Source of the DNA: Knoellia koreensis
GTDB lineage: Bacteria; Actinomycetota; Actinomycetes; Actinomycetales; Dermatophilaceae
DNA length: 64,000 bases
NCBI RefSeq assembly: GCF_013041615.1
Contig: NZ_JABEPQ010000001.1
Coordinates: 1,108,976 to 1,172,975, forward strand
Direction of reading: 5' to 3'
Within the stretch, counting starts at the first letter, position 1. Each line of letters starts with the position of its first letter. A model generated the notes under the pieces. It saw only the letters and a program-made list of their open reading frames with translations. It was not told the DNA's origin and made no database searches. Of the stretch, positions 34,549-41,042 are shown piece by piece. Both the position numbers and the translations under genes were made by a program.

Positions 34549-35466
34549 CTACGAACCCGACGGGGCGAAGACGACGTGTGCCCGCGCTTTGTGAGCGGAC
34601 TCATCCAGCATCGCCACGAGCCGGCCGTCGGGGGCGAACGCCGCCACGGGTTCGGTGCGCAGCGGCTGGGCCGAGTCGATCCGCTGGCCATAGCCCACCG
34701 CGGTGGCCTCGGCGTCGGTCAGCTCGTGACGGGCGAACTGGGCGCGGGCGGCGTCGGGCAGCTCGATGACCGGCACGGCTTCGGGGTCGTCCAGGGCGGT
34801 GAGCCGGTCAAAGTCGCGGGCCTCGTCGAGGGTGAACGCCCCGACCCGGGTGCGCCGCAGCGCGGTGAGGTGGCCGCCGACGCCGAGCGCGGCGCCGAGG
34901 TCACGCGCGAGCGCGCGCACATAGGTGCCCGAGCTGACGGTCACCTCGACGTCGAGGTCGAGCAGCGGTATGCCGTCCGCGGACGTCGCGGGCCGGCTCG
35001 CCACCACCTCGAACCGGCTGACCGTGACGGGGCGCGCGGGCAGGTCGACGTCCTCGCCGGTGCGCACGCGGTGGTAGGACCGCTGCCCCTTGACCTTGAT
35101 GGCCGACACCGAGCTCGGCACCTGGTCGATGTCGCCGGTGAGGTCCGCGACCGCCGCGGCGACGGCCTCGTCGGAGAGATGGTCGGCGGCGGCCGTGGCC
35201 GTCACTTCACCGTCGGCGTCGTCGGTGATCGTGTTCTGCCCCAACCGAATCGTGGCCGTGTAGTCCTTGTCGGTGCCGACGAGGAAGGTCAGCAGCTTGG
35301 TCGCCCGGCCGATGCCGAGCACCAGGACGCCGGTGGCCATCGGGTCGAGGGTGCCGGCGTGACCGACCTTGCGGGTGCCGCAGATCCGCCGCGACCGGGC
35401 GACCACGTCGTGGCTGGTCCAGCCGGCCGGCTTGTCGACGACGAGGAGGCCGTCAGCCGCGGGCAT
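34549..35466 (-). CDS. truB: tRNA pseudouridine(55) synthase
   Basis: A 305-residue enzyme that makes pseudouridine 55 in the T-loop of tRNAs. The catalytic Asp is in GHAGTLDPMATGVLVLG (about residue 40); other motifs are PVTVSRFEV and SSGTYVRALARDLG. The C-terminal PUA-like segment is short. I chose the ATG at 35466; the gene overlaps the 3' end of rbfA by 14 bp. Residues DGIPLLDLDV include a rare ATA codon placed by a TATGCCG motif at about 34968. Confidence 0.95.
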   Translation of the reverse strand: MPAADGLLVVDKPAGWTSHDVVARSRRICGTRKVGHAGTLDPMATGVLVLGIGRATKLLTFLVGTDKDYTATIRLGQNTITDDADGEVTATAAADHLSDEAVAAAVADLTGDIDQVPSSVSAIKVKGQRSYHRVRTGEDVDLPARPVTVSRFEVVASRPATSADGIPLLDLDVEVTVSSGTYVRALARDLGAALGVGGHLTALRRTRVGAFTLDEARDFDRLTALDDPEAVPVIELPDAARAQFARHELTDAEATAVGYGQRIDSAQPLRTEPVAAFAPDGRLVAMLDESAHKARAHVVFAPSGS

Positions 35467-35938
35467 CCGGCTCGTCAGCCTCGTCGCCGGCCGCGGCTCC
35501 TTCGTCGTCCTCGTCCTCGTCGTCGTCGTGGCGGTACGGGTCGGACTCCCCGGCATACGTGGCACCGGCGGCGCTCGCGGCCACCGCCGCATCGCGCTCC
35601 TTGGCCTCCTTGAGCAGGCCCTCGATCTGCGACGCCGACTCCGGAAGTGCGTCCGGGATGAACTCCAGGCTCGGCGTCAGCCGGATCTGCAGCTGCTTGC
35701 CGACGAACGAGCGCAGCTTGCCGCGGTTCTTCTCCAGCAGCTCCGCGGTGCGCTCGCGCTGGGTCTCGTCACCGAACACGGTGTAGAAGATCGACGCGTG
35801 CTGCAGGTCGCCAGTGACGCGGACGTCGGTCACGGTGACGAAGCCGAGGTCGGGATCCTTGACGATCGACTCGAGGTTCGCGGCGACGAGGGTCTTGATC
35901 CGGTCGGCGATCCTGCGGGCTCGTCCGGCGTCGGCCAC
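35453..35938 (-). CDS. rbfA: 30S ribosome-binding factor A
   Basis: A 161-residue protein for late 30S maturation, binding near the 5' helix of 16S rRNA. The KH-like fold is visible: RIADRIKTLVAANLESIVKD, VTVTDVRVTGDLQHASIFYTVFG, and LRSFVGKQLQIRLTPSLEF. The last 35 residues are an acidic tail (HDDDEDEDDEG). It overlaps truB by 14 bp and lies downstream of the sigma/anti-sigma-like pair rather than directly behind infB. Confidence 0.95.
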   Translation of the reverse strand: MADAGRARRIADRIKTLVAANLESIVKDPDLGFVTVTDVRVTGDLQHASIFYTVFGDETQRERTAELLEKNRGKLRSFVGKQLQIRLTPSLEFIPDALPESASQIEGLLKEAKERDAAVAASAAGATYAGESDPYRHDDDEDEDDEGAAAGDEADEPDARG

Positions 35939-35960: not shown

Positions 35961-37283
35961 CTACTTCTGGTCCACGGGCCTGCCCACCTTAGTTGGTGCC
36001 GGGTCCGTGGGCAGCAGGCGGGAGTCCAGGGGGGTCACGTCACCCTCAGGCGTCACGCCGTAGGCAGCCGGTTTGCCGACGAGACCTGGCATCGCGTAGG
36101 CGCTCTCGGGTCCGACGAAAAGCCTGGTCACCTCGCCGACTCCGGCCACCCGAACTGCCTCGGTCCAGTCGCTGGACTCGGTGCGCCACAACGTGTTCGC
36201 GGTGTCCAGAACGAAGAGCGTGCCGTCCTCGGTGAGCCCGAGCGCGCGGATGGTGGTGTCGGCCGGTATGCCGCGCAGTGTCACCTCACGCCACGTCGTT
36301 CCTCCGTCGGTGGTCACCACGAGCGGCTGGTTCTCGGTGCGGTCCAGCTGCCCGGCGGGGTTGGCCGACCACGACGCGACGACCCGGTCGCCGCGGCCGG
36401 TGAGCGCCCCGTAGATGGCCTGACCCGCTTGGGCGTTGTCGCCCCCCAGGGCACGACGCTGCCACGCGGCCCCGTCGCGCGACCACACGATCGACGTGCG
36501 CGACTTGTCGCCGAGGTCCATCGCCTCCGCGAAGACCCCGTTCGGGGTGCCGGACGCGACGGCCATGAGGCTGAGCCCGTTGGGCTTCGGCATCCGGTAG
36601 GAGCGTGCACTGTCGAGGTCGACGACGAGCGCCGACCCGGTGGCCAGCACCACAGCCTGGTGCTTGGCGGACGCCGGGATCGAGCCGTCACTGGCGGTGG
36701 CCTGCTTGGCGGTCCCGTCGGCGCGCACGATGAGGGGTGTGACGCCATCGACGGTGACGACGGCGGTGTCGTCGGCGGCGCCCTGCCCCGTCACAACCGT
36801 CGCCTCAGGCCCGACCTGCGCGCCGCTGACCGGCACCAGCCCGCCCCGGACCTTGCCGCCGGCGTCGACCACCTGCCACGCGTAGGCGCAGCTGACCTTG
36901 TCGTTGCCGGTGCACTGGCCGAAGACGGAGAACTGGCCGGCTGCGCTCACCGCGAGGTCGAGCATGGGACTGCTGTCGATGACGGCCTGCGCGTCCGCTG
37001 GCATCGCGGCTGAATCGCGGCTGGTAGCGCCCGTCGGGGGCGCCGTGCTCGTCGAAGAGGCCGCTGGGCTGAGGCTTCGCGGATCATCACCCCCCATGCC
37101 GGACAGCGACACGGCGAGCGCAGTGGCAGCGGCTGCGGCAACTGCTCCCCCGGCGGCTGCACCTACGCGCACGTGGCGACGGTGGTTGGCGCGAGCGACC
37201 AGCTCAGCGAAGTCCGGGACGGTGGTCTGCTCCTGCACGTCCCGGCGCAGGGTGGCGAGGGTGGTATCGAGTCGGTCAGGCAT
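35961..37283 (-). CDS. Membrane-anchored protein with exported BNR/propeller-like repeats, sigma-factor partner
   Basis: A 440-residue protein. Residues 1-45 are cytoplasmic with LDTTLATLRRDVQEQTTVPDFAELVARA; a TM helix follows (VGAAAGGAVAAAAATALAVSL, about 52-72). The exported part has repeats with Asp-box-like sequences (WSRDGAAWQRRAL; TTDGGTTWREVTL; LTEDGTLFVLDTANTLW), suggesting a beta-propeller. Its start overlaps the sigma-factor stop by eight bases, so it probably acts as anti-sigma factor or sensor, though no zinc-finger anti-sigma motif (HxxxCxxC) is present. The function is inferred from coupling. Confidence 0.7.
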   Translation of the reverse strand: MPDRLDTTLATLRRDVQEQTTVPDFAELVARANHRRHVRVGAAAGGAVAAAAATALAVSLSGMGGDDPRSLSPAASSTSTAPPTGATSRDSAAMPADAQAVIDSSPMLDLAVSAAGQFSVFGQCTGNDKVSCAYAWQVVDAGGKVRGGLVPVSGAQVGPEATVVTGQGAADDTAVVTVDGVTPLIVRADGTAKQATASDGSIPASAKHQAVVLATGSALVVDLDSARSYRMPKPNGLSLMAVASGTPNGVFAEAMDLGDKSRTSIVWSRDGAAWQRRALGGDNAQAGQAIYGALTGRGDRVVASWSANPAGQLDRTENQPLVVTTDGGTTWREVTLRGIPADTTIRALGLTEDGTLFVLDTANTLWRTESSDWTEAVRVAGVGEVTRLFVGPESAYAMPGLVGKPAAYGVTPEGDVTPLDSRLLPTDPAPTKVGRPVDQK

Positions 37284-37803
37284 GGCGTGCCTCCTGCGGG
37301 CTGTCCTCGTAGGTCTCTTCCAGTAACGGGAGCAGGGCCGCACGGCCCCGCGACAGGCGGGCTTTGACCGTGCCCTCAGGAACGCCGAGCAGCTCGGCGA
37401 CCTCGGCGACGGGCAGGTCCGCGAGGTGGTGCAGCGCGATGGCCTCACGCTGCGGTGCGGGCAGCGCCCGCAGGGCGGTCAGCAACGCGACCCGGTCGAC
37501 GGCACTGTCGTGACGCTGCGGGTGTTCCGTGAGTTTGGGCAGCAGCCCCAGGAAGTGCCGTCCGCGCCGCCAGCGCCGCCGTGCCTGGTTGAGCGCGACG
37601 GTGAGCAGCCACGCCTCGGGCTTGTCCATCGTGGCGAACTCGCGCCGGGCCACGGCCTGCACGAACGCCTCCTGCACGACGTCCTCGGCCTCGGCCCGGC
37701 TGCGGGTGAGTCCGATGACCTGCCCCACCAGCCGCCGATAGCTGCGGTCGAACACTGCTTGCACGTATGCCGCGTGCTCGTCACGCGTGCCGGGTCCGTC
37801 CAC
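37276..37803 (-). CDS. ECF-type RNA polymerase sigma factor (SigE family)
   Basis: A 175-residue sigma factor. Region 2: YRRLVGQVIGLTRSRAEAEDVVQEAFVQAVARREFATMDKPEAWLLTVALNQARRRW; region 4: LRALPAPQREAIALHHLADLPVAEVAELLGVPEGTVKARLSRGRAALLPLL. It is coupled by an eight-base overlap to the membrane-anchored protein downstream. The start is GTG 37803. Upstream lies a 305-bp gap packed with four long palindromes that separates it from infB. It is inserted in an otherwise conserved infB-rbfA-truB neighbourhood. Confidence 0.9.
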   Translation of the reverse strand: MDGPGTRDEHAAYVQAVFDRSYRRLVGQVIGLTRSRAEAEDVVQEAFVQAVARREFATMDKPEAWLLTVALNQARRRWRRGRHFLGLLPKLTEHPQRHDSAVDRVALLTALRALPAPQREAIALHHLADLPVAEVAELLGVPEGTVKARLSRGRAALLPLLEETYEDSPQEARHA

Positions 37804-37880
37804 CGGTGCCCCCCTCCTCGTTTTCCATCCTGTCGGGAAGGACGAGTCACATCACGCCCCCGCGGTTGCACCACTCGCCG

Positions 37881-38050
37881 AGTTGAGTGCCTGACGACGA
37901 CCCAGGGGTGGGTCTCAGGCACTCAACTGCGGCAGACGCGGACGGGCCCGCATCGGAAGTTCCGATACAGGCCCGTCTAAGCCACGCGGCATACCCCACG
38001 CATTTGCGTCCGCGGTTCTGGCTGCCAGAGCGACCAGAACCGCGGACGCA
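37881..38050. repeat. Three long palindromes upstream of the sigma-factor gene
   Basis: P1: AGTTGAGTGCCTGA (37881-37894) with its exact inverse at 37915-37928 and an inner GACCCA/TGGGTC pair. P2: GACGGGCC (37941-37948) with 37970-37977 and inner ATCGGA/TCCGAT. P3: TGCGTCCGCGGTTCTGG (38005-38021) with its exact inverse at 38034-38050. Together with the infB-end hairpin they fill nearly the whole gap 37804-38108. No coding sequence is evident there. One TATGCCG motif lies between P2 and P3. Confidence 0.65.
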
Positions 38051-38066
38051 CGCAGGCGCGAGAGGC

Positions 38067-38102
38067 GAGGTATGCCGCGTGGCTGGCCACGCGGCATACC
38101 TC
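38067..38102 (-). terminator. 17-bp hairpin built from two facing TATGCCG motifs, downstream of infB
   Basis: GAGGTATGCCGCGTGGC (38067-38083) pairs exactly with 38086-38102 around a two-base loop. It starts six bases after the infB stop and probably terminates the rimP-nusA-ylxR-infB operon. Both arms are the long form of the window-wide motif (GGTATGCCGCGTGG). Confidence 0.6.
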
Positions 38103-38108
38103 ACCGTC

Positions 38109-41042
38109 TCAGTCGCGCGGCTTCTCGCGCATCTCGTAGGTCGCGATGAGGTCGCCCACCTGAAGGTCGTTGAACGACCCCAGGTTGATGCCGCACTCGA
38201 AGCCCTCACGGACCTCGGTGACGTCGTCCTTGAACCGGCGCAGGCCGGCGATGTCGACGTTCTCGGCCACGACCACGCCGTCGCGGGTGATCCGCGCCTT
38301 GGCACCACGCCGGATCTCGCCGCTGCGGACGATCGAACCCGCGATGTTGCCGAACTTGCTCGAGCGGAAGATCTCGCGGATCTCGGCGGTGCCGAGCTCC
38401 ACCTCCTCGAACTCCGGCTTGAGCATGCCCTTGAGCGCGGACTCGATCTCCTCGATGGCGTTGTAGATCACCGAGTAGTAGCGGATCTCGACGCCCTCAC
38501 GCTCGGCGTAGTCGGCGTTCTGGCCCTCGGCCCGCACGTTGTAGCCGATGATGATCGCGTCGGACGCCATCGCGAGGTTGATGTTGTTCATCGTGATCGC
38601 ACCGACACCGCGGTCGATGATGCGCAGGTCGACCTCGTCGCCGACGTCGATCTGCAGCAGCGCGTCCTCGAGTGCCTCGACCGAACCCGACACGTCACCC
38701 TTGAGGATGAGGTTGAGGGTCTCGACCTTGCCAGCCGCCAGGGCCTCGTTGAGGTCCTCGAGCGAGATGCGCTTGCGGGCCTTGGCCAGGGACGCCTGGC
38801 GGTCGGCAGCTTCGCGCTTCTCGGCGATCTGACGGGCGGTGCGGTCATCCGGTGCCACCACGAAGGTGTCACCAGCGCGCGGCACCGAGGACAGACCGAG
38901 CACCTGCACCGGACGCGACGGCAGCGCCTCCTCGACGTTCGCGCCGTGCTCGTCGAGCATCGCGCGGACACGACCGTAGGCCGAACCCGTGACGATCGCG
39001 TCACCAACGCGCAGCGTGCCGGACTGCACCAGCACCGTCGCGGTCGCACCACGGCCACGGTCGAGGTTGGCCTCGATCGCGACGCCACGGGCGTCCTTGT
39101 CGGGGTTGGCGCGCAGGTCGAGCGCGGCGTCCGCCGTCAGCAGGACCGCCTCGAGCAGGGTGTCGATGTTCTGGCCCTGCTTGGCCGACACGTCGACGAA
39201 CATGGTGTCGCCGCCGTACTCCTCGGCCACGAGGTTGTACTCCGTCAGCTGGCCACGGATCTTGGCCGGGTCAGCACCCTCGACGTCGATCTTGTTGACC
39301 GCCACCACGATCGGCACGTCAGCGGCCTGCATGTGGTTGAGCGCCTCGATGGTCTGCGGCATCACGCCGTCGTCGGCGGCGACGACGAGGATCGCGATGT
39401 CGGTCACCTTGGCACCACGGGCACGCATGGCGGTGAACGCCTCGTGACCCGGGGTGTCGATGAAGGTGATCGCGCGGTCGACGCCCTCGTGCTCCCGGTG
39501 GACCTGGTAGGCACCGATGTGCTGGGTGATGCCACCGGCCTCACCGGCCACGACGTCCTCGTTGCGGATGGCGTCGAGGAGGCGGGTCTTACCGTGGTCG
39601 ACGTGGCCGACGACGGTCACGACCGGCGGCCGCGGCTGCAGGTCGTCCTCGTCCTCACCCTCGATGCCGGTGTCGAGGTCGATGTTGAAGGAGTCGAAGA
39701 GCTCCTTCTCCTCCTCCTCCGGCGACACGACCTGGATGTCGTAGCCGAGCTCGGCACCGAGCACCTTGAAGGTGTCCTCGTCGAGCGACTGGGTGGCCGT
39801 GGCCATCTCACCGAGGTGGAACAGCACGGTCACCAGCGATGCCGGGTTGGCGTTGATCTTGTCGGCGAAGTCGGTCAGCGAGGAACCACGACGCACCCGC
39901 ACGACGGTCGAGCCGTCACCACGGGGAACCGTGACACCGCCGAGCGACGGAGCCTGCATCTGCTCGAACTCCTGGCGCTTGGCCCGCTTGGACTTGCGCC
40001 CGCGGACCGGACGGCCGCCACCGCGACCGAACGCACCGGCGGCCTGACCGCGGCCACCGCCGCCGCCACGGCCACCGAAGCCGCCGCGACCGCCGAAGCC
40101 GCCACCACCACCGGGACCGCCACCGGGGCCACGGTTGCCACCGGGACCACCACGGCCGCCACCCGGGCGGGCCGGGCGCTCACCGGGACGACCGACCGCG
40201 GAACGGTCGGGCATCATGCCCGGGCTGGGACGCGGACCACCGGGACGGGGCCCACCGGGACCGGCCGACCCACCGGGGCGAGGCCCCGGACGCGACTGCG
40301 GCCGCGGCATACCCTGGCTCGACGCGAAGGGGTTGTTGCCCGGGCGGGGCGAGCCCTCGCGACCCTGCGGACGCTGGGTGCCCATGCCCTGGCTGGACGC
40401 GAACGGGTTGTTGCCCGGGCGCGGACCGGCGGAGCCGCCGGGACGCGGGCCGGGCGCCGCGGGGCGCGGACCGGCCGAGCCGGGGCGCGGCGAGGAACCC
40501 GTGCCGGGTCCCTGCTTGCCACCGTCACGGGAGGACTGGACACCCTCGCGGGCGGCCGGCGCGGCCGGAGCCTCGGGGGTGGTCGGAGCGGCCGGGGCAG
40601 CCGGAGCGGGCGCCGCCGGCGTCGGTGCCGGTGCCGACTTTGCAGCCGGCGCCTGCGGCTCGGCGGGAGCCGGGCTCGCCGGTGCGGCCGGGGTCGGCGC
40701 GGCCGGGGTCGCGGACGGCTTCGGCGCTGCCGGCTCAGCGGACGGCGCGGCCGGGTTGGCCGGCGTCGACGAGGACGGCGCAGAGGCCGGGACCTCGGTC
40801 ACCTCGGGCGTCGCCGCGGTGTCGGCCGGCTTGGCCGCGGTCTTCTTCGCCGCAGCCTTCTTGGCGGGAGCCTTCTTCTTCAGCTCCTCGGGGAATGTCT
40901 CGGTCGCCTTGCGGACGACCGGTGCCTCGATCGTCGAGCTGGCGGTCTTGACGTACTCGCCGATGCTCTGGAGGTGGGCGATCAGCGTCTTGCTGTCGGT
41001 GCCCAGCTCCTTGGCGAGCGCGCTTACACGGACCTTTGCCAC
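38109..41042 (-). CDS. infB: Translation initiation factor IF-2
   Basis: A 977-residue GTPase that brings fMet-tRNA to the 30S subunit. N-terminal IF2_N ([20 protein letters not shown]), then about 330 residues of low-complexity Ala/Pro/Lys and Gly/Arg repeats (including two copies of NPFASSQGM), a second IF2_N near 385, the G domain with [12 protein letters not shown] (about 475), DTPGHEAF and NKID, and domains II-IV. The long disordered spacer is normal in high-G+C actinobacteria. A possible extra promoter lies in the 128-bp gap upstream. Confidence 0.97.

Follow-up and report, generated by a model that had tools for sequence, protein, structure and literature searches.

Short words that label DNA for uptake have been named, in the portions of the literature available, for the Neisseriaceae (DUS) and the Pasteurellaceae (USS). 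The DUS of Neisseria are described as lying about 1,150 nt apart, as stringently conserved and as absent from recently acquired genes, and their inverted repeats are described as acting as terminators (excerpts of PMC2397512); conservation, dialects, terminator pairs and absence from acquired genes also appear in the combined excerpts of PMC2397512 and PMC3630211. The transformation of Micrococcus luteus uses Flp pili together with ComEA and ComEC (excerpts of PMC4322843 and PMC6370729), and no uptake word is described for this organism in the available text of PMC4322843, from which both "uptake sequence" and "discriminat" are absent.

HIP1 and Chi are further examples of octamers that are repeated many times over and present in numerous core genes, a property shared by the word described here. 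The cyanobacterial HIP1 octamer is palindromic, and Chi-like sites are strand-biased with replication; uptake words are evenly spaced along genomes, and the USS of Pasteurellaceae have, in addition, preferred reading frames and phased AT-rich flanks.

The window considered here is a stretch of 64,000 nucleotides from Knoellia koreensis (contig NZ_JABEPQ010000001.1, positions 1,108,976 to 1,172,975, forward strand), the whole genome of which was searched as 4.28 Mb in 15 contigs. One of the palindromes in the gap between infB and an ECF sigma factor gene is an inverted pair of the non-palindromic word GTATGCCG (extended form GGTATGCCGCGTGG), the genomic statistics of which behave like those of the DUS and USS of Neisseriaceae and Pasteurellaceae. 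By this likeness, GTATGCCG is proposed, with a probability of roughly 0.55, to be a DNA-uptake-sequence-like self label in Actinobacteria. Neither an uptake word in Actinobacteria nor this word as a genome repeat was found among the matches listed for the open literature (title and start of abstract), which is weak evidence of novelty.

Gene Layout and Palindromes of the Gap

The gap (37804–38108, 305 bp) is bounded upstream by infB (38109–41042, minus strand) and downstream by the ECF sigma factor gene (37276–37803, minus strand), which carries the Pfam domains Sigma70_r2 and r4_2; the gene positions used for all distances to stop and start codons are taken from home-made ORF calls. The sigma gene is overlapped by a partner ORF of 440 aa (35961–37283, minus strand) that has no Pfam match and may, judging by its position, encode an anti-sigma factor. 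Beyond it lies rbfA (35453–35938, minus strand), named by eye from a sequence match to the post-infB ORF of congeners, and infB and rbfA are separated in this genome by the sigma gene and the 440-aa ORF (35961–37803).

Four palindromes with perfect arms of 14, 8, 17 and 17 bp had been reported for this gap in a preliminary description, and their positions and arm lengths are reproduced here. Palindrome A (37881–37928, no strand assigned) has perfect arms of 14 bp; hairpin D (37941–37977, minus strand) has perfect outer arms of 8 bp and pairs over 18 bp at 89%; palindrome C (38005–38050, no strand assigned) has perfect arms of 17 bp; and palindrome B (38064–38105, minus strand), with perfect arms at 38067–38083 and 38086–38102, contains word copies at 38070–38077 (plus) and 38092–38099 (minus) and begins 3 nt past the infB stop codon. 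Neither A nor C is built from the word. A fifth element, absent from the preliminary description, is a third copy of the extended B-arm word at 37981–37995 (GGTATGCCGCGTGGC on the minus strand, core at 37987–37994), which is unpaired and lies directly before hairpin D.

When the gap was shuffled 300 times with its dinucleotides preserved and loops of up to 30 allowed, the longest perfect arm reached a median of 6 bp and a maximum of 13, so that 14 was never attained. The 8-bp arm of D is by itself no more than chance provides, 95% of shuffles having a longest arm of 9 bp or less, and the D hairpin therefore rests on its 18 bp at 89%. A 464-kb sample (C1:1-400000 plus the window) contains 60 gaps that are 150 bp or longer; 7 of these have a perfect arm of 14 bp or more (loop up to 15), and two such arms are found in this gap only. 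Folding of the transcribed minus strand gives −179.1 kcal/mol, compared with −108.6 ± 4.8 kcal/mol for shuffles (z = −14.7). A scan of the gap for terminator-like sites with a T run returned 0 sites, hairpins being present with no T run after them, and no canonical terminator is called for this reason; the sigma-70 promoter scan of the gap was likewise empty. Nothing exceeded the gathering score in an Rfam search of the locus, and the best sub-threshold match, traJ-II (33.3 of 40 bits), followed by microRNA families, was taken as chance, as long hairpins attract such matches.

Dispersed Palindrome Families

Three of the four gap palindromes belong to dispersed families and are not private to the sigma gene: A, B and C recur elsewhere in the genome, while the single-copy D matches itself only. 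Family A occupies 23 further places besides the gap copy, 24 in all, and consists of similar 48-bp palindromes (AGTTGAGTGCCTGA...TCAGGCACTCAACT) that mostly adjoin stop codons; none was found in the searched samples of relatives. Palindrome B is found at no fewer than 40 genome places, the gap copy included (40 scored of 569 first-look candidates), and 53 B-type palindromes carry exact GGTATGCCGCG arms. Among pattern matches in sampled segments, a stop codon is found no more than 40 nt away from 32 of 34 B pairs and a start codon equally close to 6 of the 34, the corresponding figures for A being 18 and 9 of 24; on a looser list of 41 B places, 2 are intragenic by the gene calls. Family C comprises a handful of related places, which with look-alikes include C13:38300, C11:150956, C1:1685193-1685306, C9:271544 and C8:276966, with arms around TTGCGTC(C/T)GC, and several C-type palindromes directly adjoin copies of GTATGCCG. 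An orthologous-site search around 67 palindromes found one case, in which the relative is without the B palindrome.

The dispersal of similar 48-bp palindromes over 24 places, the confinement of 8 of the 9 copies of the A arm word in the 464-kb sample to such palindromes, and the absence of family A from the relatives' samples would all suit small transposase-mobilized elements of the MITE or REP kind. This explanation of the palindromes is nevertheless very improbable, since the unit of B is a word of 8–14 bp occurring mostly as single genic copies, which is not a product of transposition, and no target duplications were noticed in an informal inspection of the A flanks by eye. A transposable origin of B was set aside because the word is mostly intragenic.

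Sequences Following infB in Relatives

The C-terminus of InfB was searched in 29 genomes, ten of which are congeners. A perfect hairpin arm of 10–20 bp starts 10–37 nt past the infB stop codon in nine of the ten, and the tenth, G141, has by eye an 11-bp arm with a longer loop. Exact GTATGCCG lies within 24 nt of the infB stop codon in seven of the ten (G147, G145, G141, G146, G139, G144 and G140), and variant words follow infB in G142 and G138 (GTATGCAG) and in G143 (GTACGCAG). The word forms a perfect palindrome in G147 and G145; in G141, G146, G139, G144 and G140 it is single and is followed by, or merges into, another GC-rich hairpin, which is the order of the copy at 37981–37995 and D. rbfA starts 89–185 nt past the infB stop codon with no sigma gene between in nine of the ten congeners, the exception being G141, in which rbfA starts 1.0 kb past infB; the region downstream of infB in this genome (L109) contains repeats around CTTCTGGCCAGCGGTGCCGCATG. 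In seven more distant genomes, infB is followed by other sequences, with no such word within the stretch compared.

From these comparisons, the sigma gene and its 440-aa partner ORF look like a newcomer between infB and rbfA. The word and hairpin formed by 37981–37995 and D resemble the infB end of several relatives; D is possibly the older infB end hairpin, and B, C and A would be hairpins added beside this word and hairpin.

The preliminary description took one palindrome as a plausible terminator for infB and suggested that the others could be operators, RNA structures or cruciform hot spots controlling the ECF sigma gene. The former idea holds in part: the hairpin position at the 3′ end of infB is kept in congeners, but the T run of a canonical terminator is missing. 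The latter idea, by which the palindromes would be operators or RNA switches, has in its favor their position upstream of the sigma gene and against it the recurrence of families A and B beside the stop codons of other genes, as well as the hairpin kept after infB in nine of ten congeners without a sigma gene between; because hairpins are present in congeners that have no sigma gene there, they belong with the end of infB. Control of the sigma gene as the explanation of the palindromes is thus hardly credible, and a part for A or C in sigma expression may still exist. In the comparison with relatives, which had been named as a check, the infB-end hairpin is kept in congeners and A was not seen in the relatives' samples.

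Abundance, Orientation and Conservation of the Word

By an unbiased word count, GTATGCCG is the most over-represented 8-mer of the 464-kb sample, where an order-3 Markov model predicts 22.6 copies and 459 are present, and it is the commonest 8-mer in a second stretch, C8:1-400000, with 391 copies (0.98 per kb). Over the whole genome, GTATGCCGYG occurs 2494 times (1246 + 1248) against 28 (11 + 17) for the reversed pattern, and GGTATGCCGCGTGG, with up to one mismatch, 359 + 378 times against 1 + 4; 43 of 76 sampled GGTATGCCGCGTGG matches are inside genes. The window holds 76 word copies, three of them in the infB–sigma gap. The word is strongly over-represented genome-wide, as is expected of DUS and USS, at a density of about 1 per kb on both strands, within and between genes; the expectations come from simple models, and most tests were made on samples rather than whole genomes. 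Its 8-base core is sharp, since none of the 24 words one mismatch away exceeds 2.4 times expectation and the majority do not rise above background. Downstream of the core the bases Y, G, T, G and G are preferred, more strongly between genes, and little signal extends past about 5 bases.

No strand polarity is seen genome-wide (1246 vs. 1248), in the 464-kb sample (235/224) or in C8:1-400000 (193/198), and the strands are near balance in 50-kb bins. Genes contain 381 of the 459 copies, 213 in sense and 168 in antisense orientation, and 78 lie between genes or at edges; the density of 0.91 per kb in coding against 1.65 per kb in non-coding DNA amounts to a modest intergenic enrichment. Tyr-Ala or Ala-Tyr frames account for 302 of the 381 genic copies (177 of 213 sense, 125 of 168 antisense), so that both the lack of polarity and the preferred reading frames of DUS and USS are present.

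Within 60 bp of each other, word copies form 13 convergent, 6 divergent and 0 tandem pairs in the 464-kb sample, the 13 convergent pairs being only a twofold excess over the 6.6 (2 to 11) of random placement. Core copies in short gaps (20–250 bp) number 4.0 per kb in convergent, 3.0 in tandem and 2.7 in divergent gaps, which does not set convergent gaps strongly apart, so that single words are no feature of 3′ ends. Long exact inverted pairs, unlike single words, are a feature of gene 3′ ends, and the close inverted pairs at gene ends that characterize DUS and USS are accordingly found here in the form of the B pairs. Even spacing of the word copies was looked for in C1:1-400000 and not found, the spacing being about random.

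B, C and A could alternatively be terminators or mRNA 3′-end stem-loops of conserved sequence, with the word as a by-product. The proximity of most B and A palindromes to stop codons (32 of 34 and 18 of 24, respectively), the high stability of the hairpins and the hairpins after infB in ten congeners agree with this. An intrinsic terminator consists of a GC-rich hairpin and then a T run, and the T run is absent; moreover, termination gives no reason for the 381 of 459 word copies that sit inside genes in both orientations. This explanation is improbable, and a terminator function for B can be a second role rather than the origin of the word.

At sites aligned with five congeners, the words of the own genome are identical in 24 of 47, 27 of 42, 24 of 41, 11 of 38 and 18 of 35 cases, or 104 of 203 in total, against 79 of 405 for flanking 8-mers 20 nt to either side, so that the word is kept 2.6-fold above its flanks; these counts are summed over genomes, and the five comparisons share the same own words and are not independent. 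One-mismatch words are also somewhat conserved (25 of 78 identical), and part of the conservation may therefore be codon constraint. The conservation above the surroundings known from DUS and USS is thus seen, with some codon constraint possible. Where the word has been lost, two or more changes are usually seen. The exception is G138: this congener has a lower copy number (302 + 339 of GTATGCCGYG), and 11 of its 38 sites differ at a single base, which would be expected of a word in decay.

The two longest word-free gaps of C1:1-400000 measure 10,896 and 10,853 bp and contain integrated mobile elements, with a tyrosine integrase and an AAA_25 protein (C1:192320-203216) and a serine recombinase (C1:129481-140334), respectively. 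The third longest is the rRNA operon; by eye, two large secreted-type proteins are encoded in the fifth, and Rhs-like or WXG-like genes are present in the fourth and in the sixth. As the longest gap at random spans 5.0–10.3 kb (95%), the 10.9-kb gaps are barely beyond the range, and gap length alone is a weak argument, gene content being a stronger one. The longest word-free gap in C8:1-400000 is 5.8 kb, and the longest gaps there hold ordinary and Tad genes with no obvious mobile genes; the absence of the word from foreign DNA is accordingly an observation from one 400-kb stretch.

Several of these properties would also suit a genome-wide internal site that is comparable to Chi or HIP1, serves recombination, chromosome organization or methylation and is unrelated to import, the 3′-end palindromes being incidental. 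Its sharp 8-base core without an excess of one-mismatch words, its even coverage of genes and the failure of ComEC presence to track the word (see below) point in this direction. The orientation bias with replication expected of Chi is, however, lacking, given the counts of 1246 and 1248 and the near-balanced bins, and the word is non-palindromic, unlike HIP1; furthermore, the word-free gaps in integrated elements, the dialect-like flanks and the inverted pairs at 3′ ends find counterparts in DUS as described in the accessible parts of the literature. An internal site of this kind is rather unlikely, and is given a smaller share of probability than the uptake label, with the remainder distributed among the other explanations, because the signature is DUS-like here, but ComEC does not track the word and PilM is absent.

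Distribution in the Family

Among 186 genomes of the family, 99 are high in the word, 76 are low and 11 fall between, where high denotes 200 or more copies of GTATGCCGYG that outnumber the reversed control no less than 5 times, low denotes 60 copies or fewer, and the thresholds were set post hoc. The high genomes have a median of 38-fold over the reversed control; the low ones, summed, still exceed it (1004 vs. 442 hits). Of the 53 genera, 27 include a high member and 23 have low members only; g4, g33 and g42 contain both kinds.

In samples of 20–100 kb from 12 genomes, GTATGCCG ranks first among 8-mers in G049, G103, G077, G145 and G147 and second in G136; it is enriched without being the top word in G143 and G146 (7 and 6 copies vs. 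0.5 expected), reaches 4 copies against 1.2 expected in an 80-kb sample of G002, and is absent from the samples of G158, G082 and G001. The flanks around the core differ among genomes (GGTATGCCGCG, CGTATGCCGCG, GGTATGCCGTG), so that dialects round a shared core, as in DUS and USS, are found in six of the 12 sampled genomes. In the 48 infB loci of Streptomyces (253 kb), 3 copies of GTATGCCG against 2.8 expected constitute no enrichment.

Other enriched words were also encountered. The top 8-mer of G002, a member of a genus poor in GTATGCCG, is GTACGCCG (56 copies vs. 10.6 expected in the 80-kb sample), which is possibly a T-to-C dialect of the word or a codon effect. A 60-kb sample of G136 contains, besides GTATGCCGTG, a second enriched word, GACAGGCGTT, with 9 copies against fewer than 0.1 expected.

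Candidate Uptake Machinery and Comparison with Known Systems

comEA and comEC lie about 9 kb to the left of the window, near leuS (identified by eye). One tad/flp cluster (C8:333609-342280) encodes three Flp_Fap proteins together with TadE and RcpC, and a second (C8:282-6699) has T2SSE and SAF domains; 7 of the 8 proteins examined matched domains, and the rest of both clusters was assigned by eye. As ComEC is found in 180 of the 186 family genomes, word-rich and word-poor alike, it fails to explain the presence or absence of the word. PilM, a marker of type IV pili, is lacking in 181 of the 186, the own genome included, and was for this reason dropped as a marker of an uptake pilus.

According to the available excerpts, the Neisseriaceae DUS shares with GTATGCCG a short, non-palindromic form, a density of about 1 per kb, occurrence in and between genes, conservation above the flanks, dialects that have their core in common, and inverted pairs lying close together where genes end (PMC2397512, PMC3630211). 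The absence of DUS from acquired DNA may have a parallel here, in that the longest word-free gaps of one 400-kb stretch lie in integrated elements. The USS of Pasteurellaceae, which are associated with competence, likewise number hundreds to thousands of copies, also within genes (excerpts of PMC2346458, PMC1626085 and PMC7811141). With Micrococcus luteus the shared feature is the machinery genes, represented here by comEA, comEC and two tad clusters (excerpts of PMC4322843 and PMC6370729).

The present word differs from the Neisseriaceae DUS in its high-GC actinobacterial host, in its 8-base core, which is GTATGCCG and not GCCGTCTGAA, in the presence of Tad/Flp pilus genes with PilM absent, in that only some copies are paired, and in being known from sequence alone. 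The letters ATGCCG are common to this word and the 12-mer form of the Neisseria word, which may be chance. From the USS, it differs in sequence and in the shortness of its downstream signal (about 5 bases). HIP1 is palindromic and Chi strand-biased, whereas this word is neither.

On the proposed reading as an uptake label, the word would mark self DNA and would be bound by a candidate surface receptor during natural transformation, perhaps working through Flp/Tad pili with ComEA and ComEC, all of which are encoded here. Close inverted pairs at gene 3′ ends can form stem-loops, as after infB, and such pairs would be tolerated or kept there as RNA stem-loops for termination or 3′-end protection.

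Implications

The chances are about even that these features together represent a Gram-positive actinobacterial uptake-label system, with a family-wide GTATGCCG core and genus dialects and a putative Tad/Flp-linked receptor, retained by core genes and kept out of mobile elements, and hence a third independent origin of sequence-biased uptake. If this is true, self-labelled transformation would have arisen independently in high-GC Gram-positives with Tad pilus genes, and natural competence would be predicted in Pedococcus, Janibacter and relatives. The addition of the word to donor DNA would then offer a practical handle for bacteria that are hard to transform, and one class of palindromes at the ends of genes in these bacteria would be explained.
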